Source of the DNA: Actinomycetota bacterium
GTDB taxonomy: Bacteria > Actinomycetota > Actinomycetes > S36-B12
Length of the DNA: 55,892 nt
Direction: 5' to 3'
Assembly: GCA_017857875.1 (NCBI GenBank)
Contig: JAFMCH010000002.1
Span: 1 to 55,892, forward strand
The translations under genes were made by a program, and so were the position numbers. Below, in pieces: positions 1 to 33,137 of this stretch; within the stretch, counting starts at the first letter, position 1; each line of letters opens with the position of its first letter. A model generated the notes under the pieces. That model did not search any database, was not told where the DNA came from, and saw only the letters and a program-made list of their open reading frames with translations.

Positions 1-778
1 CGGCTGCGTGCTGCTCTACGGCAGCAACGCCGACGACAGCAACCCCGGCAGCGACGGTCAAGACTGCGGCAATGAGCGCCCACCAGCGCACTGCCCGCAC
101 GGGTACACCACTCGCATACGCTGCGCGGTCACCCAACGACAAAGCATCGAGTTTGCCAGACAGCGCACCGGCAATTACCAGACCCACGGCGATGAACGGC
201 AATGTCGCGACAACACCGGGCCAAGTAGCTAGAGCGAAGCTGCCCGTTGTCCAAAAGGTTGTGGAGCGCGTGCCCGCGGAATCAGAGGTCGCCACGACGA
301 TGCTCAACACGGCAGCCGCGAACGCCGTGATGGCTACCCCGGCAAGGATGAGGGTGACGACTTCGGTACGCCCTGGCGTCTTAGCGATCCACATCACGCT
401 GGCCATGGCGGCAATGCCACCGATAACGCCACCCATTGCTGCCAGCCAGGAACCGTAGGCCGCGCCGACCGCCACGATGAGCACCGTGCCCAGCGCTGCA
501 CCGGCACTCACGCCGACTAATCCTGGATCGGCCAGTGGGTTTCGGAATGCTCCTTGCAGCAAGGCTCCGGATACACCGAGACCGGCACCGATGCTGAGCG
601 CGAGGATGACTCGAGGGGCACGAATATCGGTAATGATTTGCGTCGTGGAGTCGGCGGCACCGATAAACAGTGCCGCAGTCGCCAGAGCAGCTGTGCAGAC
701 CGTCAGCGCGCCCAGCACAACCAGAAGCCGCCGTGGCTGCGGCAGTTTTCGGCGTGGGGTCAACTTGGTCGTGGTCAT
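1..778 (-). CDS. hmuU: FecCD-family heme/iron ABC transporter permease (3' truncated by window edge)
   Basis: Inner-membrane permease of an iron-siderophore/heme ABC importer. About 259 residues are visible of a family length near 340. A basic N-terminus is followed by many hydrophobic helices. The family hallmark is clear around residues 50-85: R-APRVILAL, GVSGALLQGAFRNPLADP and GVSAGAALG. The ATG at 778 lies 6 nt after the stop of the binding-protein gene, so the two form an operon; the ATPase is presumably beyond the edge. Oddity: the last roughly 9 codons at the window edge read VAAVEQHAA where FecCD proteins nearly always have a GFVGLVVPH-like motif. This may be real divergence or a sequence/assembly error at the end. 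The heme rather than siderophore assignment rests on the HmuT-like partner. Confidence 0.85.
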   Translation of the reverse strand, partial: MTTTKLTPRRKLPQPRRLLVVLGALTVCTAALATAALFIGAADSTTQIITDIRAPRVILALSIGAGLGVSGALLQGAFRNPLADPGLVGVSAGAALGTVLIVAVGAAYGSWLAAMGGVIGGIAAMASVMWIAKTPGRTEVVTLILAGVAITAFAAAVLSIVVATSDSAGTRSTTFWTTGSFALATWPGVVATLPFIAVGLVIAGALSGKLDALSLGDRAAYASGVPVRAVRWWALIAAVLTVAAGVAVVGVAAVEQHAA

Positions 779-784
779 GATGAA

Positions 785-1741
785 TCAGTTCATGACCGTA
801 GACAGGGCCTCACGTAGTTGGTCAACCAGGGCGGGTGTGCGTGGTCCAAACGACAACAGCACCTCATCATCAACAACGATGACGCGGCTGTTCTTGCCAG
901 CGTTGGTTTGTGCCACCCCGGGTAAGGCCAACAGGCCGTCTAGGCCATTGACCGAGGCCAACCCTTTCGTCATGACCAGCAAGATGTCGGGATTGAGCGT
1001 GACCAGACTTTCCGCCGTAAGCGGCACGAAGGGATCAAAGTCTTCCTCGGCGCCCACGTCGACGCCACCGGCTGCGGTGATGAGTGCATCGGCACCCGAC
1101 CCTGCGCCACCGAGCAGATAGATACCCGAGGTGCCACGCAAGTAGACGAAGGCAACGCGCGGTTGTGGCTGGGCGGAGTCTGGATCGCTTGTGGATGGCA
1201 ATGAACGAATCAGTTCATCGGGGTCGACATCAACTGCTGCAGCAACTGCTGAAATACGCGGACCCATGTCAGCCAATGTCCACGCCTCGGGCACTTCGAC
1301 AACCTCTACACCGGCCCCGGCGATCTGCGCAAGGGCCTCAACGGGTGCGGTCGCGGCATCAACGAGCACCAGATCGGGGGACAGGTCAAGGACGCGCTCG
1401 GCTGAAACGCTGTGAGCTTTGGTCACGACGGGTGCATCAGTGATGCCTGCAACGTCGGAGGTTTCATCGCGACCGACCACTCGATCGGCCACGCCGAGCG
1501 CGGCGAGTGTTTCCCCGACACCGTTAGCCAGACTTACTATGCGCATCGGAGCATTGGGGCCCGGTTGGGCGGTGATCGGCTCTACTTCGGGGAGGGAATC
1601 AGCTGTGATGAACACAACGGGCTCCGTGACGGCGTTAGCCGAATCTATGGTCGGGGTCGAGCCTGCGCCTTGATCACTCGCGCATGCGGCGGCCACCAGC
1701 ATTGTGGTGGCGACGAGCGCGATAAGGCCTGACCTACGCAT
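785..1741 (-). CDS. hmuT: Heme/iron ABC transporter substrate-binding lipoprotein (HmuT-like)
   Basis: Extracellular solute-binding lipoprotein that delivers heme or a related iron ligand to the adjacent permease. The 318-residue product starts with a lipoprotein signal (MRRSG, a hydrophobic stretch, then the lipobox LVAAAC with Cys at about residue 20). The rest is a TroA/periplasmic-binding-protein type III fold: a first lobe from about 67 (RIVSLANGVGETLAALGVADRVVG), a segment around LSPDLVLVD, and a C-terminal lobe with TAAGGVDV and LNPDILLVMTKG. The order binding protein then permease is that of hmuTU(V) operons. A CACACT hexamer sits exactly 6 nt before the ATG, so the mRNA may be leaderless. 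Fe(III)-siderophore binding is the main alternative. Confidence 0.85.
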   Translation of the reverse strand: MRRSGLIALVATTMLVAAACASDQGAGSTPTIDSANAVTEPVVFITADSLPEVEPITAQPGPNAPMRIVSLANGVGETLAALGVADRVVGRDETSDVAGITDAPVVTKAHSVSAERVLDLSPDLVLVDAATAPVEALAQIAGAGVEVVEVPEAWTLADMGPRISAVAAAVDVDPDELIRSLPSTSDPDSAQPQPRVAFVYLRGTSGIYLLGGAGSGADALITAAGGVDVGAEEDFDPFVPLTAESLVTLNPDILLVMTKGLASVNGLDGLLALPGVAQTNAGKNSRVIVVDDEVLLSFGPRTPALVDQLREALSTVMN

Positions 1742-1777
1742 AGCTCAAGTGTGCGCTATCGGTATGCCGGATGAATT

Positions 1778-1833
1778 GACGCGGTGTCGGCAAAGTTACC
1801 GACGCGGTGTCGGCATGATGCCGACGCAGCGTC
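1778..1833. promoter_or_regulatory. Triple repeat and palindrome between divergent hmuT and secreted-protein genes (putative operator)
   Basis: The 15-mer GACGCGGTGTCGGCA occurs at 1778-1792 and again at 1801-1815 (23-bp phase, about two helical turns). A third, inverted copy (13 of 15 matches) lies at 1819-1833. The second and third copies form a perfect palindrome, GTCGGCAT-G-ATGCCGAC, at 1809-1825. The array sits between the hmuT start (1741) and the 1869 gene, upstream of both. This arrangement suits a regulator binding cooperatively to control both directions. The regulator is not identified; iron or heme response is inference from the neighbours only. Confidence 0.55.
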
Positions 1834-1868
1834 AAGCGACCGCCCCGCTGACTTTCTAATGTGTCGTC

Positions 1869-2450
1869 ATGTTCAAGATTCCCGTGGTGTTGCTGAGTTC
1901 GGCTGCCCTCGCGATCAGTGCGCTGCCGACCGCTGCCGTCGCCATCGCCGCCCCGGGGTTTCCGTCACCAGTAGTCCTTGCGTCGAGCGGCACCGATGTG
2001 TTGACAACCGCAGCCAGTAATCGAAATGCACGGAAGGTAGCCAAAGGTCCGCGTGGCAATAAAATTCGGGTAAGCCGCATCAGCAATTTGGCACCGGGCG
2101 GCACGTTCATTACCGTCAAGGGAGCAGGTTTTTCTGAAACGGTCGGCGTGTATGTCGCCCTATGTAAAAAGAAACGCGCCGGCCTCAAGCCCGGACCATG
2201 CGGCGGTGGTGCGGACCTCGACGGCAGTAGTCAAGCCTCGGCATGGGTCTCGTCGAATCCACCTCCTTACGGCCGGACACTGGCGACGCCCTATGCCCGT
2301 GGCGGAAAGTTCCAGGTGCGCATCAAGGTGTCGGCCAGGATCGGCACCTACAACTGCAGGCCATCTCGATGCGCGATTGTCGTGCGTGCCGATCATCTCA
2401 ATGGCAGCGACCGACGTTGGGATTTGTCCGTGCCGGTGAGGTTCCGCTAG
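1869..2450 (+). CDS. Secreted neocarzinostatin-like domain protein
   Basis: Predicted exported protein of 193 residues with a signal peptide at about 1-28 (hydrophobic core VVLLSSAALAISAL, Ala-rich end). The mature part is a single beta-rich domain, about 65-193, with ISNLAPGGTFITVKGAGF, GVYVALC, GPCGGG, SAWVSSNPPPYG and IGTYNCRPSRCAIVVRADH. The paired cysteines and the GVYVALC / YNC-R--CAIVVRADH pattern match the neocarzinostatin-like domains found in actinobacterial cell-surface proteins, often next to HtaA/heme-uptake genes. A TCTAAT box lies 8 nt before the ATG, so the transcript is probably leaderless. A role as a surface heme-handling partner of hmuTU is inference. Confidence 0.7.
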   Translation: MFKIPVVLLSSAALAISALPTAAVAIAAPGFPSPVVLASSGTDVLTTAASNRNARKVAKGPRGNKIRVSRISNLAPGGTFITVKGAGFSETVGVYVALCKKKRAGLKPGPCGGGADLDGSSQASAWVSSNPPPYGRTLATPYARGGKFQVRIKVSARIGTYNCRPSRCAIVVRADHLNGSDRRWDLSVPVRFR

Positions 2451-2513
2451 CACCCAGGCCAAACAGCGAATTGCTACAGCATTGCCGAATTGTTCCCCCT
2501 TGAAAGGACACAC

Positions 2514-3296
2514 ATGAGCATCAAGATGACAGCCTTCGTAGCCGCCGGATCGTTGAGTTTGGGCGCAGCACTACTTGCGGGCACCGCTCAGGCAGCGGGA
2601 GAATTCGACGCCACCGTGGATGGAGAGTCCAATAATGGTGTGCTCGCTGATCTTCCGCCGTCGAGTGAGCTCCCCCTTCAGGTGCTCAATCTCCCTGCGG
2701 GAACGGGGCTTTACGCAATTCATTGCGCGGTGCCGGTTGACCCACGATCTGCCCCGACACGCTGCGACAGCGCTGAGGGCACCGCAATTTTCATCGTCCC
2801 CGCGGGAGAACCGCGAGCGCAGATCGATCGATCCATCGTCGTGACCGCTGAGTTCATCGGCTCCAACCCCAACCGCGCATCCGGCGATCAGGGCACTGAT
2901 CCGATCGATTGCCGCGAACAGGCCTGCGGGGTTTATACCCTCGGTTCGGGCCAAGAGTTCGTCAATCCGACCTACCTACGGTTTTTCAAGACCGAGTTTG
3001 CTGCGGTAGGGCCCCGCCAAGATGACGTCATGAAGATTCGCGTGCGCAACAAGCCGGTTGCAGAGAACGCGGTGCCGCGTTTGCGCTATGGCGCGGATGT
3101 TCGTTTCACCATGCGAATGGTCTCTGGTCTGACACCGACAGTGCAGAGCACGAACTGCCGTGTTGACCTGGAAGCCAAGACGATTCGCGCCCTGGTGCGC
3201 AAGGGAACCTGCACCATCACCATCACCACGACCGGTGATACGGCGTACAACGCATTTGTCGGCGAACAGACGTTCAAGATTCGCAATCGTAAGTAG
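2514..3296 (+). CDS. Secreted protein, neocarzinostatin-like N-terminal region plus C-terminal beta domain
   Basis: Exported protein of 260 residues. The ATG at 2514 is chosen over an in-frame one at 2490 because AAAGGA (2503-2508) is a good ribosome-binding site and a clean signal peptide follows (MSIKMTAFVAAGSL to AQA, about residues 1-28). The mature N-terminal part has LNLPAGTGLYAIHC and CREQACGVYTLG, the same Cys-bracketed GxYxxxC pattern as the upstream protein. The last 60 residues form a separate beta-rich piece (SGLTPTVQSTNC to FKIRN) of a kind seen in actinobacterial secreted proteins. It lies 63 bp downstream of the 1869 gene and ends at a strong terminator, so the two are likely co-transcribed. 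No precise function can be given. Confidence 0.7.
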   Translation: MSIKMTAFVAAGSLSLGAALLAGTAQAAGEFDATVDGESNNGVLADLPPSSELPLQVLNLPAGTGLYAIHCAVPVDPRSAPTRCDSAEGTAIFIVPAGEPRAQIDRSIVVTAEFIGSNPNRASGDQGTDPIDCREQACGVYTLGSGQEFVNPTYLRFFKTEFAAVGPRQDDVMKIRVRNKPVAENAVPRLRYGADVRFTMRMVSGLTPTVQSTNCRVDLEAKTIRALVRKGTCTITITTTGDTAYNAFVGEQTFKIRNRK

Positions 3297-21254: not shown

Positions 21255-23186
21255 ATGCGTGTCCCCCCAAAATTGCGCACCGTCGTGTGCGCCCTGCTTA
21301 TCTGTGCGGTGCCGTCGTCGGTGGGTGCTATTGCCACCGGCTCAACCGCTGCCGGAGCGGAATTAAGCGCTGCGGCCGCATCAACCAGCGCCTATGCGGT
21401 AATCGGTTCACTTGCCGTCGGAGGAAATGCTGACCTGGTTTATATTTCCGGCGGCAATACGGCGTCGACCGCTGACGATTCGATCTACGTCGCCTTTGAT
21501 GACACGCTCGTGACCTATCCACCGCTTGCTACATCCGCCAGCCCATCTACGACCTTGGGATTTGGCGCCGCCGTGACAGCAGTGGCGGTGACGGATGACT
21601 CGCTATACGTCGGTGTTGCCGAACTGTACGTCGGTGGTGCGTTGATTTCGTCGGCTCAGATCCAGTTGTTTGCGGTAGGTGCGCAGGATCCCGCTGTACC
21701 CACCGCATTAGCCAACCTGTCTTCGTCTGCCTCGTCCATCGCGGTGGGTGGCCAGGGCACGTCGAGTCTCCTCGATGACACCGTCTACCTGGTGGCCTAT
21801 AACGGCATTAACGGCATTAGCCAGTTGACGCCCACTCTTGATGACTCGTCGAGCGTCCTGTTCTCCTCGGATAATGTGCAGCCAGGAACCGTGCTCGTGT
21901 CGGGCTCAGGCACCACATCGACATCCGACGACACCGTCTATGTTCGAGGGAATGGCTTTGGGAGCGGAGCACTCATCGCGCTGCCGCCAGCTCTTGACGA
22001 TTCGGTCTGGCGAGATCCGTTGGGTGCTGGGGGTAGCGATCTCACCCTGTGGGATGACTCTTTGATCGCGGGCAGTTACAACGGCATGCGCATCATTAAT
22101 GCTCTCGATTTGGATGACAGTGTTCGGGCTCCGCTAGCCGGTATGGAAAGCGCGGTTAACTCCTCAAACGTGATCGCAACGATTACCTACGGGGGTGGTT
22201 ACGTTCCCCGGAAGGTGGGCATTATTGATGGGACTGACTTGAGCCTCGTGACCCAACTTGACCTTGGGTATTCAAATTCGGGGAGCGGCTCGATTGCCGC
22301 CGCTGCCGATGGCAGTTTCTATGTTGCCGGTGACACACCTGTGGTCAGTATCGTGGATTCTGTCACCGCCGGATCAATGTCTCCAAGCAGTGGAGCCTCC
22401 ACCACGCAGGTCGTCCTACCCCTCGTGACGGCCAGTGGTCGGCTGATGGATGACAGCACGGTGACTTCGGTGAATTGGGGGAATAGTGCCGTCGCGTTCA
22501 CCCGGGTGCCCGGGCAAAATGCGGTGCAGGTGAGTGCGCCGGCAATCTTTGGATCGGTTGCTGTGAGCGTGGTTCTCAACGGTGGAGATGAACTCGCTAT
22601 GGGCACGTTCACGTCAACGGATGTTCCAGCCCGACCAGCTTCGTCGCCGCTTGATGTCGTCGCGGTAGCTGGTGAGCAGCAGGTTGATGTGTCATGGTCG
22701 GTGCCAGCAGATTCAGGCACATTCCCGATCACGAATTATCAGGTGTCCTCCACGTCAGGCAATGAGGGTTGTTTAGCATCCGCTCCGGCAGTGACATGTG
22801 TGGTGTCCGGGTTGGCTGATGGTACGTCGTATTCGTTTCAGGTGCGGGCGTTGAATGGCGCCGGTTGGGGGCCGTGGTCTGCTACTTCTGATCCGGTGAC
22901 GCCTCCGGGGGTGACGATCCTGATTACGGGTTCTCGGGGTGACGTGCGTGGGAAGCCAGGTGTGGTTGTCACGGGCACGTCGACCGGTTTGGGCATGGGT
23001 GCAGTGTTGCGGCCAAAGGTGAAATTAGCGGGCGAGGCTTCCTACACCCAGGGCACCGCGTCGATCCTGGTTGACGAGGATGGCGCCTTCACGTGGCAGC
23101 GTCGCACCGGTAAGAAGGTCTATGTCTATGTGCAGACCGAAGACCGCACGGCACGGTCCAACCGGGTGGCCATTTCGGCCGGGTGA
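21255..23186 (+). CDS. Secreted repeat protein with fibronectin type III domain
   Basis: Exported protein of 643 residues; signal peptide about 1-30 (LLICAVPSSVGAIA). Residues about 45-360 contain at least eight short units built on a DDS/DDT-[ILV]-Y-V motif (for example ADDSIYVAF, TDDSLYVGV, LDDTVYLVA, SDDTVYVRG), suggesting a beta-propeller-like array. A fibronectin type III domain follows (about 460-550; VDVSWSVPADSG, YSFQVRALNGAGWGPWS). The last 90 residues resemble a C-terminal module common in actinobacterial surface proteins (TSTGLGMGAVLRPKVKL, FTWQRRTGKKVYVYV). No wall-sorting signal seen. Likely an envelope or adhesion protein. Confidence 0.8.
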   Translation: MRVPPKLRTVVCALLICAVPSSVGAIATGSTAAGAELSAAAASTSAYAVIGSLAVGGNADLVYISGGNTASTADDSIYVAFDDTLVTYPPLATSASPSTTLGFGAAVTAVAVTDDSLYVGVAELYVGGALISSAQIQLFAVGAQDPAVPTALANLSSSASSIAVGGQGTSSLLDDTVYLVAYNGINGISQLTPTLDDSSSVLFSSDNVQPGTVLVSGSGTTSTSDDTVYVRGNGFGSGALIALPPALDDSVWRDPLGAGGSDLTLWDDSLIAGSYNGMRIINALDLDDSVRAPLAGMESAVNSSNVIATITYGGGYVPRKVGIIDGTDLSLVTQLDLGYSNSGSGSIAAAADGSFYVAGDTPVVSIVDSVTAGSMSPSSGASTTQVVLPLVTASGRLMDDSTVTSVNWGNSAVAFTRVPGQNAVQVSAPAIFGSVAVSVVLNGGDELAMGTFTSTDVPARPASSPLDVVAVAGEQQVDVSWSVPADSGTFPITNYQVSSTSGNEGCLASAPAVTCVVSGLADGTSYSFQVRALNGAGWGPWSATSDPVTPPGVTILITGSRGDVRGKPGVVVTGTSTGLGMGAVLRPKVKLAGEASYTQGTASILVDEDGAFTWQRRTGKKVYVYVQTEDRTARSNRVAISAG

Positions 23187-24785: not shown

Positions 24786-27700
24786 CTACCAAGATGCCTT
24801 GTATTCGTGACCGCCGCCGGCATTGATCTGCACGTCGATACTGCACTCATCGTCGGCCCAATCGGTGCCCGAACCTGCGTTGATTGTGCAGGTCAGAGAG
24901 CCGCTGCCACCGGACACACTCACGGTGCCACTCAAGGTGGCATCAAGGGTGCTCGCAGGCTTGTTCACATTCATCGAGTATTCCAGCGACACATTGAAGT
25001 AGGGGTGCCGATTGAACTTGTGGAACCAGAACTTCCACGAAGTGCTTCGTTCGAACGTGAAGGTCACCCCACCGGCCAAAATATCCGTCGATGAGTCGTA
25101 GTCGAGATCGAAGGTTTGGGTGATGGCCCCGTGGCTGTAGTCGTACTCGAAATGCAAAGTATCGAGATCGCCACAATTGATGGAGATATCACCGACAAAG
25201 CTCAACGAGGTCTTCGACGCCATCGACATCAATCCGCTGGTGTCTGATGTGAAGGTTCCGCACTCACCCGCACCAAAGGGAACATCCATCACGATGTCGA
25301 AGTCGAATTCCTCAAGATCGAATCCGCCACCAGCCCACGACCAGTCCGAGAGTGAAGCAGATCCGTCGAGCCGCAACTCGTCTTCGTTGACCAACAGGTC
25401 GAAGGAGCCGTCGAAGTTACCCGCCGAGATCGCCATGTCGCCAACAAACGTAATTGAGTCATCGGTGGTCGACTGATAGATGCTCAGTTCCATATCCTGG
25501 AAGTCGATGCCGCCAACAGTGATGTCGGCGATGCTGAGATCTTCACTGAAGACCGGACCGTCTGCATCTTCAGTGATCATCAGATCGAAACTCAGTGAAC
25601 CGTCGCCCAATTCGCCATCGAAGGACACCGAAGCGCCCTGTGCCAGCGTGTACGAGCCAACCTGGCAGCCCTGAGCAGCAAAACTGATGGCAAAGTCATT
25701 GGCTGTGAAGACGCCTTCGCCAAGGGACACACCCGAGTCACCTGTCGTTGAAAAATCAAAGAGGAAACAAGGATCATCTTCACTGAAGTTGATTGCCATG
25801 TCGCCCTTGATCCAGTCGGTGCCGGTCATGACCTGTGACATCTTGGTCGGATCTTGGTACAACGTTGCACTGACGCCAAGACCGGGCACGCCATCGCTGA
25901 AGTCGACTTGAGCGCTTGCCGCCCACAGGTGAGCGCCGGGAATACCGAATGCCTCATCCCACAGGTAGACGTAGCCAGAGTCCGGGTGGGGTAAAGCAGT
26001 GGTGATGCCGTCGGGTGCGGGCGTGCCATCAGAGATGGTGATCGAGTCCACATCCAATGGCACCGATGACCCTGAGACAAACAATTGCACCCGCAGTGAA
26101 GTCAGATCGGTGGAGCCGACCGTGTAGGACACGGACACTGGCGTCCAAGCATCGCCGACACTGAACGACGAGAGGGTGGGTGTACCGGCTGGATCACCCA
26201 GACCCACCTGGCCCGTTACTAGATCGGTGCTTGAACTAGAACGGACATAGGCCGTGGCAATCCAGGTGGTGCCGGCTGAGTAGACACCGCCAATATCGTC
26301 GCTGGCGGCCATGTCGTAGTAGGTCGAGCCGGACCCCGAACCGACGTAGTCCAATTCCAGATAGCTGGAGCCTGACTGCGCGGACGCGCCGTCATAAACA
26401 ATCGTCTGCGTGACGGCAGGACTTGATGCAATCCACATGTTCGACTGCATCGTGACGTCATCGAGGTAAAGCATGACCCCGGGTGTTTTGGAGACCACCG
26501 CCACGGTGAAACCGGTGTGGCCCGCCTGGGCGATGGTCATTGGAATGCTCACGCTCTGCCAGGTGTCATCGGCGGTGAAGTTCTGCGCCCATTGTTCCTG
26601 GGTGCCACCGATGGTCGAGACCTGAACTGTCCCCTTGATCTGCGTGGTTGGCGATGATGATCGAACCCATGCGTTGACGCTGTACTGATCGCCAACGTTC
26701 GAGGCCTGATCGACGGTTTGCTTGACTCCGGTGCTGCTGGAGCTGGAGGTCGTCGTGAATTTCATCAGGCCATAGCTGCCGTCATGTGCATTCGCCGGAT
26801 CATCGACAACCTGCCACGTCACGCCGCTGCCAGCAGCTGTCCAGGGGTCGCTTTGGTTGATGATCAGGGGAGTGATCGTCAGTGCATCAACATCGAGTTG
26901 ACCGCTGCCGTTGAGAGTGATCTGCGGTGTCAACGAGGTAGCGTCTGACTGTGCTTGCAAGGTCACCTGCACCTTGGTCCAGTCTGCCGTTGCCGTAAAG
27001 CCGACGCCGGTCCCCTCGCCTGCACTCGTGCCTAAAGCGATCCTCCCGGGCAGATTGATTCCGGTTGTCGAACGTACGTAGGCCGTGAGTTCATACGAGG
27101 ATCCGGCCGCCACATCAATGGCATCACCATCGGTGTCTGCGGTGATCGTGTCGGTGACGCCGCCGCCCTGAGCGGAGGTGTTGAAACGCAGGTAGTTCAT
27201 TCCGTCAACGGCGTCTGAGACCCCATCGATGATCGTGATTGATGCACGACCACTACTGGGTTGGAGCGCAGACCAGGAATCCACGTCGCGGCTTTCCACG
27301 TCGTCGATTGCCAAAGTCGCTCCACGAGGAAGGCTGATTTGGGTGCGGAGGGACACCGCGGTGGTCTTTTTGATGGGAAGGCTGATGTACACCTGTTGCC
27401 ACGAGCTGGTGGCAGCGAAGCTGACCGAATAGGTATCCAGCGATGCGCCGTTGGCATCGTAGGTAGTCAACGCTGCCGAGCCATTAACCGTGCCGGCGGG
27501 CGCAAGTACCCAGAATGACATCTCATGTGCCGTACCCGAAACCGGTGTGTAGGAGTCGTCATCGAGATAGATCGATGAGCTGCCCGACCCGTTGTTGACC
27601 ACGGATAGATAGTTGTTGCCGCTGTGCGCGGCATTGGCGTCGTCTATGGCAATGATGCTGACCGGGCCACTCGAGCTGGGGAAGGTCCAGTCGTCGACGG

Positions 27701-30700
27701 GACTGAGACCGGACTCAATGACGGATACGTTGTCGACATACGCAACCTTCGTACCCTTCGTATTGGTATTGCTGATGGCAATCTGGATTAGTCCTGCTGT
27801 TGTCGTGATGGGAAGGGTCAACAGCACCTGCTGGTAGGCCGTTGTCATGGCAACCGTCGTCGAAGTGCTGTTCGCGCCACTACTTAAGGTGATGGTCACG
27901 TAGTTGCCCGTCGTACTTCCAGCGACATACACGCTTGATTTCCAAGTCGAACCCAAAGCCGGCGTGACCGTACTGGCGTAGCTGGCGGTTGTCGTGCAGT
28001 TTTCGACTGGTGCGAGGAGCAAAGAACCGATCGAGCGGTAGGCGACCGACGGATCACTGGACACAACCGCGCTGTCATCTGTTACCGAGGAGCAGTCAGA
28101 CTCCATGACCCAACCAATCGGTGCGGGGGGCGCGCCGACATCACCGGTTTGGGTGGAGGTAGTGCCCTGCACTGTCACGGTGACGTCATCGACATAGATC
28201 GGGGCGGCTTGACCGCCATCGATATTGACGGCGATGTAGAGGTTCTCGGTCCCTCCTTGCAGCGTGCGGGTGACAGAAACCTGTTGCCAAGTGGCCGTTG
28301 CGGTGAAGTCATCCTTACTCCACCCGGAGGCCTCGCCGATGCGTAGGTCGCCCGATACTGCCTTGCCGGGGGTCATCACCCAGCCGGTGATGGTGGCCGT
28401 AGATCCGGCAGCGGGTGGCTCATCGAAGGTGTACACCGCCTGGGATCCTTGGCTGTAATTGATAATCGCCAATGAATCCGTGCCCGAGTACGCCTCATTG
28501 TCAGAGACCGCAACCGTGGTTGACCCCACCGGATTCCAGGGCACTTCCTGGAGTACCTGGTCGTCAAGGTAGAGCTGATTGGCGCTCGTTGAGGTGATGG
28601 TGAGTCCAGGACGAAGATCGCTGTGATCATCGTCAGCCACCGTCAAGCTCACGGCAACCTGGGTCCATGTTGTACCCACGGAATAGGTGGTCGACACGCT
28701 TTCATCAGCGTCATCAGCATCGGCACCAGCGGCATCCAGGGTGAGTGTGCCTGACACGGTGCCGCTGGAAGCGCGCATCCAGGTGGAGTAGGTGTAGGTC
28801 GCACCCTGGGTGGGTGTCTCACCGGTCGAGTACTGGAAGGGGGCGCCCGAAACGCTGTTTGCTGACAGGATGGCGTAGCCCGAGCCCTCGTAAGCGAGGC
28901 CGTCGCCCCACTTGACCTCGTTGGGTGTAGATGTCGTGGACTGTTGGCCGGTTTGGTTCGCTAGAGAGTAGATGCTGACGTCGTCCCAGATGAATCCGTT
29001 GTCCTGATTATTACCGCTGCCCACTTGGCCGAAGACGCCGCCGGGCGGGGAGGTGACCTGGATGGATACGGAGTTGACGTATTCGTTGGAGTCCGCTTCG
29101 GTCACGTAGGCGGTGACGTAGCCATCAACTGCGGTGAGGCGTACCTGATACCACGTGCCACGGTCTACCTTTCCGATTGTTGCGAGCTTCGTCGAATTGC
29201 TCTTGCAGTTCTTGTAGAAACCGCCATTGCCGTCATTGGTGTGTAGGGAGAAGCAGTATCCGGTCATGGTGGAGTAGTTGCCATCGAGCCAGAATCCAAA
29301 GTTGGCATCTTGCGAGTTGTTGCCACTGGCGCCTTGGAAACGTACCTTGTAAGAAATATCGAAGTCACCGGGTGTGTAGCCGGTGTCGAGCCCGTACAAC
29401 ATCCAGTTGTAATCGTTGTTGGATTGGAGTTGGCTCGGGTAGGAAGAGTTGATTTTCAGGCCGCTGGAGTACCCCGATATGAAGGGGGTGCTGGACAGGC
29501 TGTCAAACGTCGCCACCACGTTAGGCCGCCATACCGTCGGCAAGCTGGCTGCAGACGTGGTGGTGGTGATGGAGAATTCGACCGCATCGATTTGTACCGA
29601 CGTGCCGGAATTTTTGGGCACCAGAGTGACCTGTAGTGAGTCACACCCAGAGTTGTTTCCTGGAGTGGTCATCGATGCCGTTGCCTCAACCCAGGTTCCG
29701 CTCGTCGCCGTGACCGTGGCTCCTTGCGTGGCTGTCACCGTTGAGGTGCAGTTGGAAGGCGTCAAAGAGATGAGGAAGGGTGCTGAACTCGAGGTATTCG
29801 ATGTCACCCACGCCGACACACTGATTCCGTAGGAAGCAAGACGCATGGGAATGATTTGGGTAAGTCCTTGAGTGGTGTTGTTGCTGACAGAGTTATTGGA
29901 AAGCACAGCCAGGGTGCTGCCTTGATCTGTCGGCCCTACCGCCGTGCCCTCAGTCGTAGTGGCGGTGAAGGAACTGGAACTTGTTTGCCAGCCGAGCAGG
30001 CTGCCGTCATTGTCTTCGAAGTCACCGTTCACCAGCAGTTGTGTTGACTCGAAGTCACCGTTGGCCAGAATGTTTCCTGAGGAGCCGTCTTCGAAGTCAC
30101 CGTCGGTCAACACGTTGAGGTTCATGCCGTCTTCGAAGTTACCATTGCCGACCAGAGCGCCAGGTGTGCTGGAACGTTCAAAACCGCCATCGGTGGCGAT
30201 GTTCGCCGGCATAGTGCCGTCAAAGCTCCCGTCTACGATGCTCGCGTTGGTCGGCTCGAAGTTGCCCGTAGGAATGAGGGTGATGAAGTCCATCGTTCCC
30301 TCAGACTGCGTACTTTCAGTGCCCGTTGCGGTGAGCCCGACCGTGATGGTTTCAGAGTCAGAACTTTCATATCCGATGTAAACATCCAGCGGGAAGTAGT
30401 TGCCCTCGAGGTTGACCGTGGCGTCGGCATCAAGCCTCAAGTCAAACACGTCGCCGTTCTTGCTGATCGTGATCAAGATCTCTTTCAACGCGAAGCCTGA
30501 CCCGGATAGGTTGACCGGGATGGTGCCATCGAGTTCGAAATTGCCGGCGGTGTCGAACCAACCCGTAGTTGAGATGGTGGTGTCAACTGAGACGCCTGAC
30601 CCGAGGTCGTTCATGACATTTCCAGCTACGACGACGTCACCGGTGAGGTAGTTCTCGCCGGTCTGCATGACGATCTCGTCACCATTGAGGTACACCGTTT

Positions 30701-33137
30701 GCTCGTCATCAATGCCGTTGTAGGCGTATCCGGTGACTGTTGTGGAGACCATGGTGATGTCGTTGTAGGCACCGGTAATGACTGCTCCAGCAGTATCCAC
30801 CTGTCCAATGACGACATCGGTGGGCGAGCCGCCCCATTCGACACAGCCGTAGGTGTTCACCGTGCTGATATCGGGAATATCAACGGTGAAATCGGAGCAA
30901 AACTCTAGGCCGAATCCGTTGGGGTTGAGGGACGATAGGTCTGGCAGCACGAGATCGGGGTTGGTGTCGCTGCGCTCACCCTTCCAAATCGTCACATCGG
31001 GGTCGGACAACGCGATATCGGTCCCGCCGCCGCTTTGATCGGTTGCGACAAAGGTGATTTCTTCGGTAGCGACCGCATCCCATCGGGCCCAGGTGAGATC
31101 TGTAGTGAAGGCACCGGTGGCGTAGATGGTCGGCATCGAGGAATCAGTAAAGACGAGGTTCGACTGGCCGCCGAGATAGATGGCGCTGTCGTCGCTGGGG
31201 CATTCATCGGCCGCAAGTGGGCAGGTGTTGGAAATGGTGAAGGCTCCCTGATACTCGACACCGTTGGCAAAGTCCTGCCATTCCTGCATGGCGATCGAGA
31301 CGTCCCACGTTTGCGCGCCAGCCACGTCAGTGACCGTTCCGGAGAAGTCAGTCTCGGGAATCTCCAGGCCGTCGTAGGGATTGTAAAGATTGCTGGGTGT
31401 CGTCGCGTTGACCGTTGCCGTCCAGTTGTTGGGATCGGTGTAGGAGTAAGTGATCGGCAGGTAGAACGTGTCGTCATCGCTGTCGCTGAGTTGAATCGTC
31501 GATGTGCCCGTGACGGTGACCTCGGAGGAATCAGCTGCCGACACGGTCGGAGCCAGTTGCGTGGCCTTCGCTGATCCCCGGGCCGAAATCGTGTCGACCG
31601 GTTGAGCGCCGGGTCCGTCGAAGACGAAGACACCACCGACCATGCCGGCGCCACCATCAAGGTCGATTCGACCACCTTGGGCCTGATCGACAAAGGCCGC
31701 GAGGGCCCAGATAGGGGTGGACCCATCGGTGAAACTGCTGCGCTCGTAATAGCCGCGCACGGGAACCAGCGAGCCAGAAATCTCGATAGCGCCTGAGCCA
31801 ACAAGGTCAACGCCACCGTCGACAACAGGGCCGGTGAGGCGAATCGTTCCTTGCCCTGCTGACATCGTGTGGGTGAGACCTGCAGTGAAGTCCCAGCCTT
31901 GCCCCTCAATGGGCAAGACGGCGTATGCGGTGCGACCTGACCACGCATCGGGCACCGGCAGTAGCAGGTCACCGCCGGTAACGACGGTGAGTGCTCCGGT
32001 GATGCCACGGGGACTGATGTCGAGTGTGGATGGTGCGCCCGCGAACAGGCTGCTGCCGGGAATTCCGAGAATCGAGCCGATGGCGGCGGTGGCGCGCACC
32101 GAGTAATTCAGCGGTCCGGTGAACCCGACGCTGGTCAGGTAGTCCAGCGAATCTATCGATACCTTCCCGGGGGCGGCCAGTGACCAAACCGGCTTACCCG
32201 CACGCATACCGATCGAACCAGACAGTCTCGATGTGTTGACGGTCAGTCCGTCGGTTTCGGGTACGACCCACGAACGACGATCAGATTTCGTTACTGTCGC
32301 CGACCACGTATTGGCCCCGGCGACCTCCAACACTGCGGGAGCGGCGAGCGTAGGTGCACTCAGGCGAAGAGTGCCTGAGCCCTTGACCAAGGACTCGGCT
32401 TGCGTCATGGCCAGGCGAACGTTGGTGATGCGGGCGCCAGGGATTCGAACGTCCTCGCGAGCGTTTCCGGTGATTCGCCAGGTTGGCTTAGTTGTTGACG
32501 TCGCAGACCGAAACCACCCGGTAACGGGTACGCGCGCTTTGGCAATCTTGACCGTGCCTGAACCTCGCAATTGATAGGTGCCATCGGTGGCCAGTGGGCC
32601 ACGCAGATCGAGCGAAGCGCCAACGCCGGTTGCCTTCAGACTCACCGCGCTTGACCAGGCGCAACCAGACGGCTGGGCGTTGACCGTGACCGACTGCGTC
32701 CAAGTGCGCGACACCTTGACGTGGCCAGGCAGGTTGATGGTGACGGCGCCGGTCATTTGCCCGTTGCGCCAGGTCAACTCCCCGGAAACGTCTTTTGCGC
32801 GAATCCGAGTGTCGCCGATGCGTCCGGAGCCAACCACGATGGTGAGCAGTCGGCTCTCGCCGCTCTGGCGCACACGGGCGACCAGGTTTGTACCCGATGG
32901 GCCCGCAAACCGGACCAGCCCTAGCGGCACAGTGGCAGCGCATAACCCACCCTGGAGCGTGATTACCCTCTGACCGCGCCGCTCGCTCAGCATGGCCGCC
33001 GGTGGGTCCACGGCGAGACTTGCCCCCTCAGCGCCTGGCTGCTGTGGATCGGCCTGCGCCATCGGCGCGACCGCCAGGCTCAAACTGGATGCGACGAGGG
33101 CAACGAGGGCTGCGGCAGTGATCAGGCGATTGCGCAT
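24786..33137 (-). CDS. Giant secreted multi-module protein with CBM-like jelly rolls
   Basis: Exported protein of about 2,783 residues; ATG 33137 (or 33146) gives a signal peptide MRNRLITAAALVALVASS to AQA. Residues about 40-540 are repetitive beta-rich segments; about 540-960 are further beta-rich units. At 961-1041 there is a run of seven short NGDFE-type motifs. A first CBM4_9-like module follows, then a LamG/concanavalin-like domain (about 1210-1390), then seven or so more jelly-roll modules to about 2375, each ending in a [LV]-Y-[LV]-D-D-V-type strand. The last 400 residues are Asp/Ser-rich beta repeats with few cysteines. No LPXTG or transmembrane anchor is visible. Probable extracellular polysaccharide-binding or matrix protein; no catalytic domain was recognised. 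Confidence 0.85.
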   Translation of the reverse strand: MRNRLITAAALVALVASSLSLAVAPMAQADPQQPGAEGASLAVDPPAAMLSERRGQRVITLQGGLCAATVPLGLVRFAGPSGTNLVARVRQSGESRLLTIVVGSGRIGDTRIRAKDVSGELTWRNGQMTGAVTINLPGHVKVSRTWTQSVTVNAQPSGCAWSSAVSLKATGVGASLDLRGPLATDGTYQLRGSGTVKIAKARVPVTGWFRSATSTTKPTWRITGNAREDVRIPGARITNVRLAMTQAESLVKGSGTLRLSAPTLAAPAVLEVAGANTWSATVTKSDRRSWVVPETDGLTVNTSRLSGSIGMRAGKPVWSLAAPGKVSIDSLDYLTSVGFTGPLNYSVRATAAIGSILGIPGSSLFAGAPSTLDISPRGITGALTVVTGGDLLLPVPDAWSGRTAYAVLPIEGQGWDFTAGLTHTMSAGQGTIRLTGPVVDGGVDLVGSGAIEISGSLVPVRGYYERSSFTDGSTPIWALAAFVDQAQGGRIDLDGGAGMVGGVFVFDGPGAQPVDTISARGSAKATQLAPTVSAADSSEVTVTGTSTIQLSDSDDDTFYLPITYSYTDPNNWTATVNATTPSNLYNPYDGLEIPETDFSGTVTDVAGAQTWDVSIAMQEWQDFANGVEYQGAFTISNTCPLAADECPSDDSAIYLGGQSNLVFTDSSMPTIYATGAFTTDLTWARWDAVATEEITFVATDQSGGGTDIALSDPDVTIWKGERSDTNPDLVLPDLSSLNPNGFGLEFCSDFTVDIPDISTVNTYGCVEWGGSPTDVVIGQVDTAGAVITGAYNDITMVSTTVTGYAYNGIDDEQTVYLNGDEIVMQTGENYLTGDVVVAGNVMNDLGSGVSVDTTISTTGWFDTAGNFELDGTIPVNLSGSGFALKEILITISKNGDVFDLRLDADATVNLEGNYFPLDVYIGYESSDSETITVGLTATGTESTQSEGTMDFITLIPTGNFEPTNASIVDGSFDGTMPANIATDGGFERSSTPGALVGNGNFEDGMNLNVLTDGDFEDGSSGNILANGDFESTQLLVNGDFEDNDGSLLGWQTSSSSFTATTTEGTAVGPTDQGSTLAVLSNNSVSNNTTQGLTQIIPMRLASYGISVSAWVTSNTSSSAPFLISLTPSNCTSTVTATQGATVTATSGTWVEATASMTTPGNNSGCDSLQVTLVPKNSGTSVQIDAVEFSITTTTSAASLPTVWRPNVVATFDSLSSTPFISGYSSGLKINSSYPSQLQSNNDYNWMLYGLDTGYTPGDFDISYKVRFQGASGNNSQDANFGFWLDGNYSTMTGYCFSLHTNDGNGGFYKNCKSNSTKLATIGKVDRGTWYQVRLTAVDGYVTAYVTEADSNEYVNSVSIQVTSPPGGVFGQVGSGNNQDNGFIWDDVSIYSLANQTGQQSTTSTPNEVKWGDGLAYEGSGYAILSANSVSGAPFQYSTGETPTQGATYTYSTWMRASSGTVSGTLTLDAAGADADDADESVSTTYSVGTTWTQVAVSLTVADDDHSDLRPGLTITSTSANQLYLDDQVLQEVPWNPVGSTTVAVSDNEAYSGTDSLAIINYSQGSQAVYTFDEPPAAGSTATITGWVMTPGKAVSGDLRIGEASGWSKDDFTATATWQQVSVTRTLQGGTENLYIAVNIDGGQAAPIYVDDVTVTVQGTTSTQTGDVGAPPAPIGWVMESDCSSVTDDSAVVSSDPSVAYRSIGSLLLAPVENCTTTASYASTVTPALGSTWKSSVYVAGSTTGNYVTITLSSGANSTSTTVAMTTAYQQVLLTLPITTTAGLIQIAISNTNTKGTKVAYVDNVSVIESGLSPVDDWTFPSSSGPVSIIAIDDANAAHSGNNYLSVVNNGSGSSSIYLDDDSYTPVSGTAHEMSFWVLAPAGTVNGSAALTTYDANGASLDTYSVSFAATSSWQQVYISLPIKKTTAVSLRTQISLPRGATLAIDDVESRDVDSWSALQPSSGRASITIIDGVSDAVDGMNYLRFNTSAQGGGVTDTITADTDGDAIDVAAGSSYELTAYVRSTTGINLPGRIALGTSAGEGTGVGFTATADWTKVQVTLQAQSDATSLTPQITLNGSGQLDVDALTITPLIINQSDPWTAAGSGVTWQVVDDPANAHDGSYGLMKFTTTSSSSSTGVKQTVDQASNVGDQYSVNAWVRSSSPTTQIKGTVQVSTIGGTQEQWAQNFTADDTWQSVSIPMTIAQAGHTGFTVAVVSKTPGVMLYLDDVTMQSNMWIASSPAVTQTIVYDGASAQSGSSYLELDYVGSGSGSTYYDMAASDDIGGVYSAGTTWIATAYVRSSSSTDLVTGQVGLGDPAGTPTLSSFSVGDAWTPVSVSYTVGSTDLTSLRVQLFVSGSSVPLDVDSITISDGTPAPDGITTALPHPDSGYVYLWDEAFGIPGAHLWAASAQVDFSDGVPGLGVSATLYQDPTKMSQVMTGTDWIKGDMAINFSEDDPCFLFDFSTTGDSGVSLGEGVFTANDFAISFAAQGCQVGSYTLAQGASVSFDGELGDGSLSFDLMITEDADGPVFSEDLSIADITVGGIDFQDMELSIYQSTTDDSITFVGDMAISAGNFDGSFDLLVNEDELRLDGSASLSDWSWAGGGFDLEEFDFDIVMDVPFGAGECGTFTSDTSGLMSMASKTSLSFVGDISINCGDLDTLHFEYDYSHGAITQTFDLDYDSSTDILAGGVTFTFERSTSWKFWFHKFNRHPYFNVSLEYSMNVNKPASTLDATLSGTVSVSGGSGSLTCTINAGSGTDWADDECSIDVQINAGGGHEYKASW
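30010..30275 (-). repeat. Run of seven NGDFE-type motifs at 33-45 bp spacing inside the giant gene
   Basis: The Phe-Glu/Asp codon pairs lie at 30015-30020, 30048-30053, 30090-30095, 30132-30137, 30177-30182, 30219-30224 and 30255-30260. Spacing is 33, 42, 42, 45, 42 and 36 bp, always in frame. Each copy reads like the first strand of a CBM4_9-type module (NGDFEDG, TDGDFED, GNGNFED, TDGGFER, VDGSFDG), but only the last is followed by a full module. Confidence 0.85.

Follow-up and report, generated by a model that had tools for sequence, protein, structure and literature searches.

Results

Organization of the locus

The window analysed here is the whole stretch of 55,892 nucleotides (contig JAFMCH010000002.1, assembly GCA_017857875.1) from an Actinomycetota bacterium whose genome is a draft in 117 contigs. 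It carries on its reverse strand a single large ORF, whose product of 2795 aa contains, between two halves of a scaffold, a string of short segments (starts, S0 to S7) followed by a series of jelly-roll domains (bodies, B1 to B8) and a lectin-like domain (Table 1). Along the chain, the order of these elements is S0 S1 S2 S3 S4 S5 S6 S7-B1 [lectin-like] B2 B3 B4 B5 B6 B7 B8. The N-terminus of the protein resembles a Sec signal peptide, on which basis it is probably exported. The genes adjoining the ORF encode a patatin-like phospholipase, an MFS transporter and an acetolactate decarboxylase, and these neighbours give no clue to the function of the giant protein. A neighbouring ORF of 643 aa (window 21255-23186, forward strand) has an FN3 domain, a type that homologues of the giant protein also carry as an insertion. 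The C-termini of the window protein (window 24789-24800) and of two related proteins, L106 and L109, read -ASW or -AKW, and in a by-eye check of these three C-termini no sorting signal or membrane segment was evident.

Table 1. Position, strand and supporting basis of the features of the giant protein gene, listed in the order of the protein chain.
Feature	Window position	Strand	Basis and remarks
Gene of the giant, probably secreted protein, 2795 aa	24786..33173	-	ORF
N-terminal scaffold half, ~aa 46-955	30309..33038	-	No Pfam match; continuous with the C-terminal half in L107
S0, degenerate start strand EGTMD, aa 958-962	30288..30302	-	Alignment with homologues; proposed partner B8
S1, start LIPTGNFE, aa 966-973	30255..30278	-	Motif and alignment; S1 before B7 extends the CBM_4_9 match to profile 4-131; proposed partner B7
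S2, start IVDGSFD, aa 979-985	30219..30239	-	Motif, alignment, start-adding test; proposed partner B6
S3, start IATDGGFE, aa 992-999	30177..30200	-	Motif, alignment; proposed partner B5
S4, start LVGNGNFE, aa 1007-1014	30132..30155	-	Motif, alignment; proposed partner B4
S5, start VLTDGDFE, aa 1021-1028	30090..30113	-	Motif, alignment, start-adding test; proposed partner B3
S6, start ILANGDFE, aa 1035-1042	30048..30071	-	Motif, alignment, start-adding test; proposed partner B2
S7, start LLVNGDFE, aa 1046-1053	30015..30038	-	Contiguous with its own body B1; profile match, model 2, structural alignment
B1 body, aa 1054-1203, proposed tip of the stack	29565..30014	-	Profiles, model 2, structural matches
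ConA-like lectin-fold domain, ~aa 1210-1404, between B1 and B2	28962..29546	-	Structural match of the model
B2 body without start, aa 1418-1543	28545..28922	-	PF02018 and body profile
B3 body without start, aa 1544-1670	28164..28544	-	PF02018 and body profile
B4 body without start, aa 1684-1821	27711..28124	-	Body profile; alone no Pfam match
B5 body without start, aa 1826-1963	27285..27698	-	Body profile; structural alignment to CBM4-2
B6 body without start, aa 1964-2103	26865..27284	-	PF02018 and body profile
B7 body without start, aa 2108-2244	26442..26852	-	PF02018 and body profile
B8 body without start, aa 2245-2383, proposed base of the stack	26025..26441	-	PF02018 and body profile
C-terminal scaffold half, aa 2384-2795	24789..26024	-	Homologue comparison, L107

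The string of starts

Seven in-frame motifs of the form [NDTG]G-x-F-[ED], starting at aa 969, 981, 995, 1010, 1024, 1038 and 1049, follow each other in steps of 12, 14, 15, 14, 14 and 11 residues, and the string that they form spans aa 966-1053. Since composition shuffles of the whole protein (n=2000) gave a maximum of two such motifs per 100 aa, the seven NGDFE-like copies every 11-15 residues reported in the first-pass annotation are well founded. At the DNA level the units have diverged, with 10-21 of 27 bases in common, and Tandem Repeats Finder detected no array at the string; they are therefore old and not the result of a recent expansion. An eighth, degenerate start (S0) lies 11 residues upstream of the first motif. 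It is a clear GSFD, GTFD or GGFD in four homologues; the window protein and the homologue nearest to it have the degenerate form.

The last unit, S7, and the body that follows it constitute a single CBM_4_9 match (aa 1045-1177, profile 2-125), and in the AlphaFold model described below (model 2) S7+B1 aligns with solved CBM4, CBM16 and CBM22 structures from the first residues onward, with CBM4-2 from residue 1. Both results indicate that the starts correspond to the N-terminal ~14 positions of a module with the jelly-roll fold. In agreement with this, the units fill positions 1-14 of the profile, so that the earlier proposal that they are starts of CBM_4_9 modules was right. It was also correct that only the last copy runs into a full module, but that reading had overlooked S0 and the seven start-less bodies located downstream.

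The jelly-roll bodies

With training on the remaining homologues, a body profile detected exactly eight bodies within aa 1061-2381 of the window protein; its reciprocal counterpart likewise gave eight in L106, a full-length homologue in which an inserted domain interrupts B6. Separated starts and start-less bodies, eight of each in two full-length proteins, show the sequence layout of nested domain insertion (A1-B1-C-B2-A2 type, PMC13114784), in which a host domain occurs as two segments on either side of an inserted one. In both proteins the linkers between bodies are mostly of 0-4 aa, which leaves no space for a start between most of them; the longer gaps are a 13-residue B3-B4 linker in the window protein, a 12-residue B1-B2 linker in L106, and those filled by the lectin-like domain.

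Against PF02018 the whole protein scored 75.6 bits over seven stretches (curated cut-off, 25.9); the cut-off was passed individually by B2, B7 and S7+B1, and by B3 with its start. Only S7+B1 is a continuous module including the N-terminal start (profile 1-5), the other matched bodies beginning at position 15 or later. Without an added start, the matches of B1, B3 and B7 begin at profile position 15-16 and those of B2, B6 and B8 further on. When the proposed partner start was put in front, the matches began at 1-4 and the scores rose from 14.5 to 28.6 bits for B1, 26.6 to 32.7 for B2, 23.6 to 31.4 for B3, 19.6 to 22.1 for B6 and 29.1 to 33.6 for B7, a gain that leaves open which start belongs to which body. 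S0 in front of B8 produced almost no gain in PF02018 score, B4 and B5 did not match CBM_4_9 whether or not a start was added, and a PDB sequence search with the S1+B7 join found no match. The control was the set of CBM_4_9 matches that lie outside the arrays in our order and phylum samples of Actinomycetota, and all 29 of them begin at profile position 1-5 (the count leaves out one further match cut by a contig end). The array bodies of the homologues enter the profile at 12, 13, 15 and 39. Furthermore, B5 aligns to residues 13-167 of the solved CBM4-2, of which residues 1-12 remain unmatched.

In the AlphaFold model of aa 948-2106, built on eight alignment rows, most bodies reached pLDDT values of 70-90 and S0-S6 were unplaced. 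In the model of aa 1016-1543 (model 2, 29 rows) the bodies fold and S7 is placed at pLDDT ~81-85. It should be noted that the pLDDT of S7 was low with 5-8 rows and rose to 81-85 once 24 contiguous ordinary modules joined the alignment; S0-S6, for which there were only 5-8 rows, stayed at ~25-40 and showed no confident placement on any body. Residues 218-392 of the model match legume lectins, ERGIC-53 and galactocerebrosidase, with Z ~15. Two alignments were discarded: a first mixed multi-module alignment, in which MAFFT scattered the modules over B1 and B2, and the untrimmed alignment to 8iq9 from model residue 29 (within the starts), which consisted of low-confidence stray residues.

Homologues carrying the string

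The search for the same string in related genomes, recommended in the first-pass annotation, was fruitful: five homologous genes carry all eight starts, namely L004, L006 and L108 in genome G066, L007 in G090 and L064/L106 in G109. Those of G066 and G090 were found by whole-protein and profile searches, and that of G109 by a pattern scan of all genome contigs. The starts keep the same order, with 39-67% identity to the window protein over the string, and each position keeps its own flavour, e.g. 'LLPTGDFEP' for S1 and 'IVDGSFDG' for S2. The F-to-F spacing (11, 12, 14, 15, 14, 14 and 11) is identical in the window protein, L004 and L007; L106 departs from it by one residue, and L006 and L108 around S5 only. 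This conservation of order and spacing excludes an assembly collapse and makes it unlikely that the units are relics. As regards L004 (G066:C51), the search reported one in-frame TAG, close to where the match begins on the N-terminal side.

S5 is aberrant in two homologues, L006 and L108, and these also have the poorest B3 (38.8 and 47.3 bits, vs 67-78 in the other four proteins). This covariation of S5 and B3 is suggestive of the pairing that nesting would predict, with only two homologues (n=2) involved and B2 separating them similarly but more weakly.

Concerning the distribution of the string, a scan of 85,000 genomes with a pattern of strict motifs, which looser strings would escape, gave 88 stretches. 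Only L064 reads as a string of CBM starts, and all the others were other repeats or out-of-frame chance matches. A profile of the string matched in 3 of 166 genomes of the order; in 396 genomes of the phylum there was none besides the window's own, and none was found in viral contigs or plasmids.

The scaffold and its insertions

In a paralogue, L107 (G109:C90, ORF 1-2832, reverse strand), the array is absent and both scaffold halves are joined by a short linker, indicating that the whole array is a single-block insertion in the scaffold. The N-terminus of L107 is membrane-anchor-like. In addition, whole domains have entered the bodies of related proteins. In the fragment L117 (G066:C16, about 1492-1977), a CBM_4_9 module that is complete and includes a start of its own lies within B8, directly after the first W, and FN3 domains occupy the corresponding loop in two other bodies, B4 of L004 and B6 of L117. 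Thus, the loop behind the start accepts whole domains, and the CBM_4_9 within B8 of L117 is a candidate intermediate of nesting, as judged from its sequence. The lectin-like domain follows B1 in most of these proteins and B3 in L106. By sequence resemblance, L106 was assigned two lectin-like domains, at about aa 1701-1911 of the ORF (after B3) and 2229-2402 (inside B6).

Discussion

A run of eight starts and then eight bodies, all but the first without a start attached, is the sequence signature of recursive insertion. We consider it highly probable that the array is a nested stack, in which the last start belongs to the first body, the next-to-last to the second, and so on. The pairs would then close like parentheses, S7-B1, S6-B2, S5-B3, S4-B4, S3-B5, S2-B6, S1-B7 and S0-B8. 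A stack of this kind suits the insertion of the array as a single block, given that its two ends emerge at one place.

From such pairing we infer a rod, or side arm, in which eight discontinuous jelly rolls are stacked: the starts would ascend one side and the bodies return, the end with B1 and the lectin-like domain would form the tip, and both chain ends would converge on the scaffold at the base. Folding would then proceed last-in, first-out, with S0-S6 emerging early and waiting for their own bodies. The array probably grew as whole modules entered existing ones at the loop that separates the start from the remainder, and the CBM and FN3 domains found in that loop in related proteins make such a step plausible. 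Taken as a whole, an eight-level stack of a single fold, i.e. deeper than the six levels named in the published survey, which folds last-in, first-out while seven starts stay unpaired, projects from the scaffold as a branch-like arm with both ends on it, and grows by whole-module insertion in one permissive loop, appears likely to us, with less assurance than the nesting itself. As for its role, the CBM-type folds and the lectin-like domain suggest that the protein is probably glycan-binding or adhesive, and the array would be a likely arm for this purpose at the cell surface.

Other explanations of the array were considered. The starts could complete the bodies of neighbouring molecules by strand exchange in trans, in a donor-strand style, which would lead to a surface polymer. 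The equal number of starts and start-less bodies would fit such an exchange equally well, and the protein looks secreted; however, S7 and B1 are contiguous and intramolecular, the conserved spacing of the starts together with the reverse order is simply explained by an intramolecular stack, and the single-block insertion accords with an arm whose two ends share a base. We regard the exchange as improbable. A slightly lower probability is given to the idea, already raised in the first-pass annotation, that the starts are relics left over from recombination between modules, the bodies folding without them. Most starts do not adjoin a body, and AlphaFold gave high pLDDT to most bodies without any placed start, as this idea would have it. 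Nevertheless, decay and a variable number of units would be expected of relics, whereas each of the eight starts holds its position, with near-invariant spacing, across six divergent proteins, and the relic reading is not upheld.

A purposely spaced short acidic repeat, serving in calcium binding or as a flexible linker and unrelated to the bodies, had also been suggested. The regular steps of 11-15 residues with D/E-rich turns agree with it, and the spacing is indeed kept in the homologues. However, the units occupy positions 1-14 of the CBM_4_9 profile and complete several bodies, and the remainder of each module is present downstream, one body per start; an independent repeat would leave seven start-less bodies unexplained, and we judge it the least probable of these three. 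Finally, the earlier worry about an assembly collapse of full tandem modules, understandable in a draft genome, has a negligible probability in view of the five homologous genes from separate assemblies, with diverged DNA and the same order and spacing.

Nested insertion of domains is already known, and what would be new in the nested stack proposed here is the presence of eight levels of one fold. In a survey of 2.7 million classified domains, the deepest nesting named was the six-level case of the cyanobacterial RNA polymerase (PMC13114784), in whose Si3 arm SBHM-2 to -5 include elements that come from far-off parts of the chain (PMC10802570). Like Si3, the array would be a long arm in which small beta domains are repeated, inserted in a host protein; unlike it, with its unrelated SBHM fold and six levels in an intracellular enzyme, the array would have eight levels of a CBM_4_9-type jelly roll, with the starts strung together on their own in what looks like a secreted protein. 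Si3 serves as an analogue only and no membership is claimed; the domains described here match CBM_4_9-type jelly rolls. In the GH10 xylanase Pm25 and its relatives, CBM4s are inserted in the catalytic domain (PMC7848910); the likeness is that modules of the CBM4 type enter another domain as a block, and the difference is that the xylanases have one level with two CBM4s in tandem, as against the eight nested levels proposed here. The archaeal S-layer protein SlpA of Sulfolobus islandicus, with an Ig domain nested in an Ig domain (PMC10120038), shares the nesting of a same fold in a surface protein, but at a single level and with an Ig-like fold, compared with eight proposed levels of the CBM_4_9 type. 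In fold and sequence, S7+B1 and most bodies are like CBM_4_9 (PF02018) and the solved CBM4, CBM16 and CBM22; however, ordinary CBM_4_9 modules are continuous and start at profile 1-5, and seven of the eight are split here. None of the known cases of nesting compared here reaches eight levels, keeps to one fold all through or shows such a string of starts, and in a literature search with most subscription papers outside its scope we found no description of nested CBMs.

Architectures of this kind are overlooked by domain annotation, as Pfam lists ordinary CBM modules that seem truncated and has no match in most of the string. If the nested stack is true, it would be recursive domain insertion carried to an extreme in nature, readable from the sequence alone as a string of starts and then an equal number of start-less bodies. 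It would also offer a testable system for the folding of deeply discontinuous domains during or after export, and for the course of recursive insertion, of which the relatives carry candidate intermediates.
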